Of a DNA stretch of 64,000 bases, positions 826-41,481 are shown piece after piece. The stretch spans positions 620,001 through 684,000 of the forward strand of contig NZ_CP031148.1 in assembly GCF_003342675.1 (NCBI RefSeq), read 5' to 3'. Positions within the stretch are counted from its first letter, which is position 1. Every line of letters starts with the position of its first letter. Made by a program: the position numbers and the translations under genes. Below the pieces are notes generated by a model that made no database searches, had not been told where the DNA came from, and was given only the letters and a program-made list of their open reading frames with translations. The stretch is from Haloplanus rubicundus. Its GTDB lineage: Archaea; Halobacteriota; Halobacteria; Halobacteriales; Haloferacaceae.

Positions 826-950
826 TCGCCCGGTGTTCGTGGCCGGACCCTGATTAATCCGGGCGATTCGAGCGAACCTTCGACCCGGGGATCGACCGCG
901 TTCCCGTCCGTCCAGTGGTCCCTCCACGAACGCTCGGGCCGGGCGTTCGT

Positions 951-1028
951 AGGGGTTATCGTAACTGTCCTTAGATTCTCGTCGGACCGTCCCAGCGAGA
1001 ATCTCTGCTGACTTCCGATAATCCCTAT
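951..1028. repeat. 78-bp nested stem-loop element, family 1, copy A
   Basis: An intergenic element with an outer imperfect inverted repeat (AGGGGTTATCG / CGATAATCCCT) and a perfect 9-bp inner stem (AGATTCTCG / CGAGAATCT). It aligns without gaps to 40405-40482; the inner stems differ but stay paired, so the structure is conserved. Its right end touches the stop codon of the DUF2103 gene. It may be a small mobile or structural-RNA element. Confidence 0.7.
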
Positions 1029-1750
1029 CAGTCCTGCAGGTCGGCGGCCGCCAACGCCTCGTTCAGGTCGTCGCGGACGCGTTCGCCCGTCTCCCGGTCC
1101 ATCGCCGTCGTCACGATCCGGTTCTCCTGGACGCTCGACCCGTCGCGCAGGAGGAGGCGCACGTTGCCGTTGCCGTCCGCCCGGGTCACCTTCGCCCGGA
1201 GTCCGGACTGCGATCCCGTCCCGCCGGCGTCGATCGGACCGGGAACGATCTTTTTGACGTGCGGGTGTTCGGCCACCGTCGAGATGGCGCGCCGCCCCGT
1301 CCGCCCGCCGATCAGCGTCGTGTGCCGGCCGCCGAGTTTCTCCTTCGGCGGCGTCTCCACCACCTCCAGCGCCCGGTCGCCGCGCCGCTCCAGCACCGCC
1401 GCCACCGGGTCCTCGCCGGCGACGCGGTAGAACTCGTAGTGGGTCTCCGCCCGCACCGCGCGGATGGTCTCCCGGTCGCCGGCCGCGAACACCGTCTCCG
1501 GGCGCTTCCGGCGCAGTTCGTCGGCGATCAACCCCGCGAAGTTCCGCCGTTCGATGACCCGCGCTTCCCCCTCCTCCTCCGGGCGCGTGGTGATCGTCGT
1601 TTCGCCCAACACGTCCTCCTCGTCGAGCATCGTCAGGCGAGCGCGGTCCTCCGCGATGTCGAGGACGACGGCGTCGCAGTTGGCGGTGTGACAGACCAGA
1701 CAGTAGTCGCCCGGCCGGTCTAACGGGGACCCACACCGCCCACACTCCAT
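1028..1750 (-). CDS. DUF2103 family predicted metal-binding protein
   Basis: 240 residues starting at ATG 1750. The N-terminus is a zinc ribbon with C3-x2-C6 and C17-x2-C20. The centre has the segment HTTLIGGRTGRRAI (143-156) followed by VKKIVPGPI, which I recognise as the core of the DUF2103 family of uncharacterised archaeal proteins. The C-terminal third is a small beta-rich stretch. The upstream in-frame extension (to 1825) lacks family similarity, so the ATG just before the ribbon was chosen. Molecular role unknown; the ribbon plus basic core would fit nucleic-acid binding, which is inference. Confidence 0.65.
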   Translation of the reverse strand: MECGRCGSPLDRPGDYCLVCHTANCDAVVLDIAEDRARLTMLDEEDVLGETTITTRPEEEGEARVIERRNFAGLIADELRRKRPETVFAAGDRETIRAVRAETHYEFYRVAGEDPVAAVLERRGDRALEVVETPPKEKLGGRHTTLIGGRTGRRAISTVAEHPHVKKIVPGPIDAGGTGSQSGLRAKVTRADGNGNVRLLLRDGSSVQENRIVTTAMDRETGERVRDDLNEALAAADLQD

Positions 1751-1834
1751 GGTCGTGGCAGTCGGCCCGCGCGGATAAGTGCGTCCTTCGACCCCGACAC
1801 AAGACCCATTGTATTCCGTTCGCACGGCTCACGC

Positions 1835-33670: not shown

Positions 33671-33781
33671 CGGGCCGGGAGGGAGTTGAACCCCCGACCG
33701 TCTGGTCACTTCCGCACCCGCCCGTTCGACCGGGCGACCACGTTAAAAGCCAGACGCTCTGCCTGACTGAGCTACCGGCCC
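33671..33781 (-). tRNA. tRNA-Lys(UUU) with a 37-nt intron
   Basis: Read on the minus strand from 33781. Mature parts give 74 nt: acceptor GGGCCGG/CCGGCCC, D-stem GCTC/GAGC, anticodon stem TCTGG/CCAGA with loop CTTTTAA (anticodon UUU), and T-arm GGGGG-TTCAACT-CCCTC. Exon 1 is 33781-33744, the intron 33743-33707, exon 2 33706-33671. The junctions form a canonical bulge-helix-bulge: bulges TA^A and TG^A around a 4-bp helix CTTT/GAAG, and the intron carries its own CGCCCG/CGGGCG hairpin. The site is the canonical 37/38 position. CGTTTATACC (about 33806-33815) is the TATA box. CCA is not encoded. Confidence 0.9.
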
Positions 33782-38662: not shown

Positions 38663-39359
38663 CTTCGTGTTTAGTTAACGATGAAGAGTGAGGCGAGTGA
38701 ATTTCTTGCTGGTCTATGGCAGAAATCACACGCCTCAGCGGGAATAACGACTGGATTGATTTGGATTTTGTGGAGCGAGAGCGGACACCCGAGCCGGCGA
38801 TGAAGCTCGGTATTCAGATGCATCTGGCTGGACTATCACTTTCGAATACCGTCTCTGCTCTTGATAGTTTGGGTGTCGAACGTTCTCGAAAAGCGGTTCA
38901 CGATTGGGTACAGAAGGCCGATCTACAGCCGGTCAGCGGAAAGGCTCCGAATCAGGTTGCGGTTGACGAAACCGTGATTCGAATCAACGATCAGCAGTTC
39001 TGGCTGTACGCCGCCGCGGATCCACAGACGAACGAATTACTCCATCTACGGCTGTTTTCGACCACTACAATCGGTCTCACCGAACTCTTTCTCAACGAAC
39101 TGCGGGAGAAACACGATGTCGAATCCGCCCTGTTTCTCGTCGATGGCGCCAAACATCTCCAAACTGCACTCGACCGATCGGGGCTCCGATTTCAGACAGA
39201 ACGCCACGGAAATCGGAATGCCATTGAACGTATCTTTAGAGAAGTAAAACGACGAACCTCTTCGTTTTCAAACTGTTTTAGCCACGTCGAACCAGCAACA
39301 GCTGAAAACTGGTTGCAGAGTTTCGCTCGCTGGCACAATGCTCCAAACTAAACACGAAG
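38663..39359. mobile_element. Intact IS6-family insertion sequence, 697 bp
   Basis: Terminal inverted repeats CTTCGTGTTTAGTT (38663-38676) and AACTAAACACGAAG (39346-39359) match over 14 bp. The flanking 8-bp GCGTCTGC (38655-38662 and 39360-39367) is the target duplication, the size typical of IS6. The element is visibly AT-richer than its surroundings, carries one full-length transposase, and lies in the intergenic region between the divergent DUF5806 and UspA genes. The perfect duplication and intact ends suggest recent insertion. Confidence 0.92.
38716..39351 (+). CDS. IS6-family transposase
   Basis: 211 residues, full length for haloarchaeal IS6 transposases. DDE candidates are Asp84 (VAVDETVIRI), Asp143 (LFLVDGA) and Glu171 (NAIERIFREVKRR) with Lys178 seven residues later. 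An HTH-like region (LSLSNTVSALDSLGVERSRKAV) precedes the core. The stop codon lies inside the right inverted repeat. Codon use is AT-richer than that of neighbouring genes. Confidence 0.92.
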   Translation: MAEITRLSGNNDWIDLDFVERERTPEPAMKLGIQMHLAGLSLSNTVSALDSLGVERSRKAVHDWVQKADLQPVSGKAPNQVAVDETVIRINDQQFWLYAAADPQTNELLHLRLFSTTTIGLTELFLNELREKHDVESALFLVDGAKHLQTALDRSGLRFQTERHGNRNAIERIFREVKRRTSSFSNCFSHVEPATAENWLQSFARWHNAPN

Positions 39360-39507: not shown

Positions 39508-39876
39508 ATGAAGCTACTGCTGGGCATCGGCGGAAGCGACGACTCGATCCGCGCGCTGGAGCGCGCGGTCGACCGCGTCGCCGAAACGGGCGACGACCTG
39601 ACGGTCGCGATCCTCCGAAACCCGGCGACCGAGGTCGATCCCGCGGCCATCGAGGAGCGGGTGCGGGCGGTCCTCGACGACGCGGGCGTGTCGGCCCCGA
39701 TCCGACAGCTAGAGGGTGACCCCGGGAGCCGACTGGTCGACCTGGCCGAGCGCGAGGACTTCGACCGGATCGTCCTCGGTGGCGGCGAGACCAGTCCGAT
39801 GGGCAAGATCAAACTGGGCGGTATCGCCGAGTTCGTCCTGTTGAACTCTCACGTCTCGGTGACGCTCGTCCGATGA
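39508..39876 (+). CDS. Universal stress protein (UspA) domain protein, short
   Basis: 122 residues, a compact Usp alpha/beta fold: LLLGIGGSDDSIRALERAV at the start and VLGGGETSPMGKIKLGGIAEFVLLNSHVSVTLVR at the end. The C-terminal glycine pattern is close to, but not exactly, the ATP-binding G-2x-G-9x-G. ATG 39508 has an ACCTTTTTC box about 30 bp upstream. The stop overlaps the start of the GNAT gene (ATGA). The IS6 element ends 149 bp upstream. Confidence 0.8.
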   Translation: MKLLLGIGGSDDSIRALERAVDRVAETGDDLTVAILRNPATEVDPAAIEERVRAVLDDAGVSAPIRQLEGDPGSRLVDLAEREDFDRIVLGGGETSPMGKIKLGGIAEFVLLNSHVSVTLVR

Positions 39877-40406
39877 GCGGTGACGACGCCTTCCCCGACG
39901 AGCCGGCCGGTCCCTTCCCCGAGCCGCCGACGACGTTCGACGACCGCGAGGGGCGGCCGATCACGGTGCGTCGGTACGACGAGGCGCTGGATCGAGACGC
40001 CCTGGAGGCGATGTACGAGGCGTTCGACCCCGCGGACCGGGCACAGGGCATCCCGCCGACTGGCGAGGAGCGCATCGCCGACTGGCTGGACGCGATCACC
40101 GGCCCGGAGACGGTGAACGTCGTCGCGAACCACGGCGACGCCGTCGTCGGGCACGCGACGCTCGTCCCCGACGAACCCGAGGCGACCGCCGAACTCGCCA
40201 TCTTCGTCCTGCAGGACTACCAGGGTGCGGGCATCGGCACTACCCTGATCGAGACGCTCCTCGGCGCCGGGCGCGAGGCGGGGGTCGAACGCGTCTGGCT
40301 CTCGGTCGAGCGCTGGAACGACCCGGCCATCTCGCTGTACGAGAAGGTGGGGTTCGTCGCCAGCGACACCGAGAGCTTCGAACACGAGATGGCGATCCGT
40401 CTATAG
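39873..40406 (+). CDS. GNAT-family N-acetyltransferase
   Basis: 177 residues. A disordered head (1-25) precedes the GNAT core with the acetyl-CoA loop LQDYQGAGIGTTLIETLL (about 112-129) and the C-terminal WNDPAISLYEKVGF. Substrate unknown; association with stress proteins hints at protein or small-molecule modification under stress, which is inference. Translationally coupled to the upstream uspA gene. Its stop codon overlaps the first bases of the stem-loop element 40405-40482. Confidence 0.8.
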   Translation: MSGDDAFPDEPAGPFPEPPTTFDDREGRPITVRRYDEALDRDALEAMYEAFDPADRAQGIPPTGEERIADWLDAITGPETVNVVANHGDAVVGHATLVPDEPEATAELAIFVLQDYQGAGIGTTLIETLLGAGREAGVERVWLSVERWNDPAISLYEKVGFVASDTESFEHEMAIRL

Positions 40407-40482
40407 AGGGTCTCGTAACTGTTCGTCGATTCCCGCCGTCACGGGCCGGCGGGAATCTACGATGACTTCCGATACACCCTAT
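40405..40482. repeat. 78-bp nested stem-loop element, family 1, copy B
   Basis: Same length as copy A (951-1028) and collinear with it, sharing TCGTAACTGT near the left and TGACTTCCGATA near the right end. The inner stem is GATTCCCGCCG/CGGCGGGAATC, an 11-bp perfect pairing with compensating changes relative to copy A. It fills almost the whole gap between the convergent GNAT and UspA stop codons. Confidence 0.7.
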
Positions 40483-40934
40483 TACACTGAGAGGACCGGC
40501 TGGCTCGCGTAGAGGAGGACGTACTCCGCGGCCTTCGCGAGCACCTCGTCGGGGTCGCCGGAGACGGGTTCCCGCGGGACGACCACGAAGTCGGCACCGA
40601 GTTCCTCCGCGGTGTCGAGGACGACGCTGCCCGGATGCCGCGAGAGTTGGCGGGTCGAGAAGCCGTAGGCCATCGACGTCGAGAGCGGCACGCCCGCGCC
40701 GTCGACGACGTCGACGACGGCTTCGAGGAAGGCCTCGGTGTCGGCCGCGAGCGACGCGTCGTCGACGGCGCCGGTGTCGATGGCGCGCGCGAGGTCCTCG
40801 CTGACGACGTAGAGCGCGTGGACTGCAGCGTCGTACTCGGCGGCGATGGCGGTGGCGTACTCGACGGCCGAGAGCGACTCCTCGCTCCCGTCGACGGGGA
40901 CGAGCACGAGCGAGGGCGAGAGCGGAACGGTCAT
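40482..40934 (-). CDS. Universal stress protein family, lacking the ATP-binding glycines
   Basis: 150 residues. SLVLVPVDGSEESLSAVEYATAIA and AAVHALYVV are typical UspA strands and helices. The C-terminal ATP motif is replaced by PREPVSGDPDEVLAKAAEYV, so it probably does not bind ATP in the usual way. Start at ATG 40934; diverges from the next uspA gene across a 79-bp promoter region with a GTTTTTGCC box about 28 bp upstream. Confidence 0.8.
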   Translation of the reverse strand: MTVPLSPSLVLVPVDGSEESLSAVEYATAIAAEYDAAVHALYVVSEDLARAIDTGAVDDASLAADTEAFLEAVVDVVDGAGVPLSTSMAYGFSTRQLSRHPGSVVLDTAEELGADFVVVPREPVSGDPDEVLAKAAEYVLLYASQPVLSV

Positions 40935-41013
40935 GCCGGGGCGTGCGCGGGCCACGGGCAAAAACGCTCCCCCATCGGGACGTTTTATGCACCGACCGGC
41001 CGAACGCTCAGGT

Positions 41014-41481
41014 ATGCTACCCGCATTCGACCGGATCGTCATCGCCACCGACGGCTCCGAGAGCGTCCGCCGGGCCGTCCACGTCGCCCTCGATTTCGCC
41101 GACCGGTTCGACGCGACGGTCCACGCGCTCTACGTCGTCGACGAGGGCGAGGTCGAATCCTCGCCCGAACGAGTGCGCGAGGAGATGCGCGCCGCCCTCG
41201 ACGATTCGGGGGAGGAAGCGTTGGCGGAGGTGGCCGCCGCGACCGACCGCCCGGTGACGACCGCCGTCCGCGAGGGGCGCCCGGCGACCGTGATTCGCGA
41301 GTACGCGGTCGAACACGACGCCGACGTGGTGGCGATGGGGACCCGCGGGCGCCACGGCGAGAACCGCTTTCTCATCGGGAGCGTCGCCGAGCGGGTCGTC
41401 CGCACCTGTCCCGTTCCCGTGCTGACGGTGCGACAGCTCGACGAGAGCGAGCGCGGCGGGGACGGTAGCGCCGCGGCCTGA
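41014..41481 (+). CDS. Universal stress protein UspA, ATP-binding type
   Basis: 155 residues with the complete Usp ATP motif G-2x-G-9x-GS (GTRGRHGENRFLIGS) and the opening DRIVIATDGSESVRRAVHVALDFA. Binds and slowly turns over ATP in characterised relatives. A CGTTTTATGC box (about 40981-40990) is 25-33 bp upstream of ATG 41014. Third Usp gene within 2 kb, and the only one with a perfect ATP motif. Confidence 0.88.
   Translation: MLPAFDRIVIATDGSESVRRAVHVALDFADRFDATVHALYVVDEGEVESSPERVREEMRAALDDSGEEALAEVAAATDRPVTTAVREGRPATVIREYAVEHDADVVAMGTRGRHGENRFLIGSVAERVVRTCPVPVLTVRQLDESERGGDGSAAA

Follow-up and report, generated by a model that had tools for sequence, protein, structure and literature searches.

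A haloarchaeal family of 78- to 82-bp palindromes inserted with 3-bp target duplication and with a preference for stop codons

The two palindromes of the window and their adjoining genes

The window (the whole 64,000-bp stretch of Haloplanus rubicundus DNA analysed here) harbored two copies of a 78-bp palindrome, each abutting a stop codon on the minus strand as the first-pass annotation had described; the stops were TGA of a DUF2103 gene for copy 1 and TAA of a universal stress protein (Usp) gene for copy 2. The gapless end-to-end alignment reported there held as well, with 58/78 positions identical; the elements were real, but their borders, placed at 951-1028 and 40405-40482, truly lay one base to the left. 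The features of the two loci were as follows:

950-1027, minus strand: copy 1 of the palindrome, 78 bp, recognised by core pattern and covariance model
1028-1825, minus strand: DUF2103 gene, coding for a predicted metal-binding protein; copy 1 targeted its stop codon
1028-1030, minus strand: one duplication copy of copy 1, serving as the TGA stop of the DUF2103 gene
947-949, minus strand: distal duplication copy of copy 1, in which T to C has turned TGA into CGA
962-968, plus strand: conserved internal-loop strand TAACTGT of copy 1 (ACAGTTA on the minus strand)
1009-1015, plus strand: conserved internal-loop strand TGACTTC of copy 1 (GAAGTCA on the minus strand)
973-981, plus strand: left arm of the inner stem of copy 1, AGATTCTCG
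996-1004, plus strand: right arm of the inner stem of copy 1, CGAGAATCT
40404-40481, minus strand: copy 2 of the palindrome, 78 bp, recognised by core pattern and covariance model
40482-41048, minus strand: Usp gene, its end abutting copy 2
40482-40484, minus strand: one duplication copy of copy 2, serving as the TAA stop of the Usp gene
40401-40403, minus strand: distal duplication copy of copy 2, now TAG on the minus strand
40416-40422, plus strand: conserved internal-loop strand TAACTGT of copy 2
40463-40469, plus strand: conserved internal-loop strand TGACTTC of copy 2
39873-40406, plus strand: GNAT acetyltransferase gene, convergent, its TAG stop codon (40404-40406) formed by the opening three bases of copy 2

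The core pattern CGTAACTGT-N20..50-TGACTTCCGA occurred twice in the window and in none of 100 shuffles, and the fold of both strands of the window copies beat all 200 shuffles (z -3.0 to -5.8); a strict search by structure gave no additional TNA-TA..TA-TNA palindrome in the window. The stop codon of the GNAT gene, located inside copy 2, exemplified the gene-end annotation errors of which the family is a likely source.

Two further features of the window were recorded: (i) a short transposase-like ORF (38716-39351, 1 kb from copy 2) with a weak DDE_Tnp_IS240 match below the cut-off and with no sign of relation to the palindrome and (ii) an Rfam tRNA match on the minus strand (33671-33781; 111 bases vs. 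a 71-position model), which was absent from the ARAGORN output (bacterial setting) and was probably an intron-containing tRNA.

Copy number, distribution, and pairing of the arms

The exact core was found seven times in the 3.77-Mb genome to which the window belongs (G000), compared to zero for the reversed control. The first covariance model, built from these seven exact-core copies, gave at least many tens of further matches in G000, and a left-end pattern search added full copies beyond the model matches. Altogether, 84 copies plus a dozen more were collected, a few weak ones of which may be chance matches; roughly 90 to 100 copies were recognisable on the main chromosome. All of them were located on main contig C2, and none was found on contigs C1 and C3 (~10% of the genome); in relative G005, copies were present on its 409-kb contig C3. 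Copies 1 and 2 were thus two members of a family spread about a hundredfold, and the initial observation was real and understated.

The second covariance model was diversified, being built from a 20-copy multi-genus alignment; it matched the family in 140/292 Halobacteria genomes (nearly half of those sampled) and in 45/77 genera, with rough E-values and with per-genome counts to be read as "at least," while an even draw of the phylum yielded only one marginal match outside the order. A covariance-model scan of haloarchaeal genomes had been proposed on the basis of the two copies, and the present models, built on more copies, showed the family to be widespread; further copies, conservation in relatives, and scores better than shuffles were all found, the reverse of the three outcomes named beforehand as speaking against the element. 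The carriers included Haloplanus ruber, and copies on plasmids were found in Natrinema, Haloterrigena turkmenica, Natrialba magadii, Natronorubrum, Natronococcus, Natribaculum, Halomontanus, and Halococcus; in plasmid pNMAG01 of N. magadii, an annotated FAD-dependent oxidoreductase gene ended on the element. In viral contigs, the strict pattern had no match and the loose pattern had chance-level matches only.

The family members were 78 to 82 bp in length, non-coding, and made up of complementary arms, and they displayed (on the minus strand in the case of the two window copies) the layout TA-[outer stem]-AAGTCA-[inner stem]-apical loop-[inner stem]-ACAGTT-[outer stem]-TA. The AAGTCA/ACAGTT internal loop was conserved, asymmetric, and unpaired, while the arms covaried along the rest of the palindrome: stem sequences were free to vary with the complementarity kept, and at least three subfamilies in G000 differed in stem sequence while sharing layout and internal loop. 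The compensatory stem changes pointed out in the first-pass annotation were weak evidence when drawn from two copies but were borne out with seven and 20 copies. In the 20-copy alignment from several genera, both sides changed in 22/29 pairs (101 cells), and covariation was 0.458 compared to 0.187 after shuffling, with slid versions reaching no more than 0.116.

Within the stems, G-T mismatches were as frequent as A-C mismatches (33:41 and 26:29), which is expected of a DNA palindrome rather than of selection on an RNA strand. Since the internal loop was conserved although unpaired, plain palindrome correction was not the cause either, and the loop is probably a recognition site that gives the element its direction. 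It did not choose the target, because the internal loops of G301 and G017 were different while duplication and target were unchanged; the idea of an RNA guide, which drew on the complementarity of loop strands AGTC and CAGT with the GACTGA target, was rejected on the basis of the same two genomes. Loci L048 and L061 of G040, belonging to another family, had a mid-stem that was mismatched in L048 but fully paired in its sister copy L061, a pair suited to the study of loop gain or loss.

Insertion with 3-bp target duplication and the stop-codon preference

Insertion into T-S-A trinucleotides with duplication of the 3 bp was shown by empty sites, a nested copy, and fresh copies, which were three independent proofs. 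Among the 71 full-length copies of G000, 35 had identical 3-bp flanks (shuffled mean 13.8, maximum 25 in 10,000), the leading combinations being TGA/TGA (19 copies) and TCA/TCA (14 copies). Perfect TGA or TCA duplications flanked 15/15 best copies in relative G006, where eight copies at eight loci were identical over all 80 bp, showing recent amplification in at least one relative, and perfect duplications were found for 17/18 copies in G129 and G301 from two other genera. At locus L105, a single TGA was common to two overlapping genes (ATGA/GTGA) in six relatives (CTATGACCC, CTGTGACCC), while G000 and G009 carried TGA-element-TGA there and the copy in G002 was decayed. The site of copy 1 was empty in the nearest relative G005 (gene 94% identical) and in G009, the orthologous gene ending with GACTGA. 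The nested copy (C2:2207.2 kb of G000) was a subfamily-3 member inserted, with TCA duplicated, in the internal loop of another copy; taking it out restored the consensus over the remaining left half.

Where the two duplication copies differed, the non-stop one was mostly CGA for TGA (13/71), other single changes being rare; the commonest departures TCG/TCA and TGA/CGA amounted to a single type of change, T to C in the non-stop copy, which possibly removed a spurious ATG (TATGA).

The stop-codon preference was assessed with empty sites rebuilt by joining the flanks and with genes called by a simple home-made codon-usage caller. In G000, 53/75 TNA-edge copies (~70%) were located exactly on a stop codon, compared to 16% of non-coding TSA sites and to an expected 23% if TSA sites were flanked by G/C; the same was true for 31/45 copies with identical duplications (p ~6e-11). 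Both orientations relative to the gene were found (28 vs. 25). The bias was present in every GC bin and was kept in convergent intergenic regions (19:3 among used vs. 54:70 among available sites, p 8e-6), so that neither GC content nor promoter avoidance was its sole cause. Recent copies from three genomes of three genera gave 16:16 for used vs. 47:626 for free sites (odds ratio 13, p 5e-10), while only 3/8 of the youngest, identical G006 copies were on a clear stop codon, which left room for selection.

The non-stop insertions displayed a weak target motif G(A/T)C-TGA-G (GWC-TSA-G), and the stop insertions of G000 likewise favored GAC downstream, suggesting a degenerate, roughly two-fold symmetric target site GWC-TSA-GWC. 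Because many haloarchaeal genes end with (G)AC-TGA (Asp-TGA), this motif explained part of the stop bias: the stop-codon odds ratio, 16.7 at first, was reduced to 9.0 once the motif score was included and to 2.4 among GWC sites. The residual bias may be due to harmless insertions having survived, to an additional cue in targeting, or to genes missed by the caller.

The duplicated TGA restores the stop codon and leaves the protein unchanged; a strong hairpin has been placed directly behind many tens of coding sequences in one genome with the proteins unaltered, and the copies constitute a natural 3' UTR mutagenesis series. Landing on stop codons through a motif coinciding with Asp-TGA offers a simple, testable explanation of how the gene-dense host is spared.

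Mobilisation, rival explanations, and comparison with known elements

The family was very probably one of 78- to 82-bp MITE-like, non-autonomous mobile palindromes of haloarchaea that are moved in trans. A transposase supplied in trans would use the internal-loop motif to recognise the ends, in folded or paired form, and would make a 3-bp staggered cut at the weak, roughly two-fold symmetric site; haloarchaeal gene ends of the type (G)AC-TGA would be its natural targets, and insertions at stop codons would survive because they are harmless. The enzyme would most likely be a DDE-type transposase making 3-bp duplications, to judge from the stagger of the duplicated 3 bp and from the rough two-fold symmetry of the target. 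DDE transposases normally need less than whole-length pairing of the arms, which counts against such a reading. A search for an autonomous parent showed that the DDE_Tnp_1 loci of G000, G002, G006, G129, and G301 had unrelated ends, and in G000 the left-end pattern gave no longer, autonomous copy among the extra matches examined, all of which were full-size, nested, or truncated palindromes. The enzyme search covered the DDE_Tnp_1 and Y1_Tnp families, and the elements are therefore called MITE-like rather than MITEs of a named IS family; they provide a handle on the transposition enzyme.

The first-pass annotation had left the choice between a MITE-like element and a small structured RNA, and the former was borne out by the 3-bp duplications, the empty sites, the nested copy, and the fresh identical copies. 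That the hairpin instead acts in mRNA as a 3' UTR element (stability, termination, or protein binding) and owes its conservation to that role would fit its stable fold on both strands, its strong covariation, and its position directly after stop codons, but the 3-bp duplications and identical fresh copies count against it, and G-U was not in excess over A-C on either strand, both orientations relative to the gene were used, presence at orthologous genes was lineage-specific, and the Rfam scan of the window matched a tRNA only; this account is highly improbable, and the family is a likely source of misread RNA motifs. Movement of a single-stranded hairpin by a Y1/HUH or tyrosine recombinase, with the folded strand and its unpaired loop as the substrate as in REPIN/RAYT systems or integron attC, is considerably less improbable though still quite unlikely. 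In integrons, IntI recombines the folded attC strand at a conserved GTT triplet, and the resemblance to the present family is one of layout only. The clean 3-bp target duplication is at odds with this mode of movement, as known Y1 transposases do not yield one, and the target motif was roughly two-fold symmetric. Y1_Tnp (PF01797) was not matched in G003, G004, and G011, all of which carried copies, so that a Y1/RAYT mobiliser was rejected. In favor of a folded strand are the structure kept while the stem sequence drifts, the asymmetric unpaired loop, and the same architecture with compensatory changes in REPINs (PMC3116915).

Two further accounts concern how stop codons come to be occupied. 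Random insertion at TSA with only harmless insertions remaining, which addresses the targeting step alone and is otherwise compatible with MITE-like palindromes moved in trans, agrees with the lower share of stop codons among the youngest G006 copies than among all G000 copies; nevertheless, selective survival as the whole cause is rather doubtful, as convergent intergenic regions, which lack promoters, also showed the preference, as did the recent copies from the three genomes taken together, and non-stop insertions had a sequence motif of their own. Target sequence plus tolerance may in turn not be the whole story, because the stop bias outlasted the motif correction; a class-wide element recognised as a folded palindrome with an unpaired loop, and moved by a novel enzyme that prefers stop codons beyond local sequence, e.g., through transcription or translation-termination context, is conceivable but unlikely.

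The MITE-like palindromes were also compared with known systems. MITEs with 3-bp TNA duplications are known from Tourist/PIF-Harbinger and IS5/IS1031-type elements; the present family was likewise short, non-coding, palindromic with inverted repeats, multicopy, and non-autonomous, with a fixed-length duplication having T and A at its ends (3 bp, T[G/C]A), but it differed in three respects: (i) no parent transposase was found among the DDE_Tnp_1 loci, (ii) the subterminal unpaired motif, instead of the terminal sequence, was conserved between subfamilies, and (iii) stop codons were preferred. Of the elements described, SMR-A and SMR-B of Haloquadratum walsbyi came nearest in size, host, and puzzling mobilisation; they are non-coding, high-copy small mobile repeats of 80 to 110 bp with terminal inverted repeats, without a known mobiliser, and with a strong target preference, SMR-A targeting IS605/PATE palindromes; they were reported without target duplication (PMC3119063), and the present family, duplicating a 3-bp TSA and favoring stop codons, is set apart by that description. 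PATEs and IS200-IS605 elements of haloarchaea share with it palindromes and transposase-free copies but have neither terminal inverted repeats nor target duplication (PMC3119063). The term stop codon was absent from a 2024 review of prokaryotic MITEs (PMC10969869), and no description of the family was found in the open-access literature.

REPINs of Pseudomonas, with their RAYT transposases also among the closest systems described, are likewise non-autonomous palindromes of ~70 to 110 bp, with a hairpin, compensatory changes in the spacer, and several subfamilies per genome (PMC3116915), but they keep conserved ends and go with Y1-type RAYTs, while the present family had a target duplication and occurred in genomes without any Y1_Tnp match. 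At L020 (1501-1668) and L027 (1417-1583), adjacent inverted pairs were found in which one copy was inserted in the duplicated TGA of the other, and these tandem arrays resembled BIMEs.
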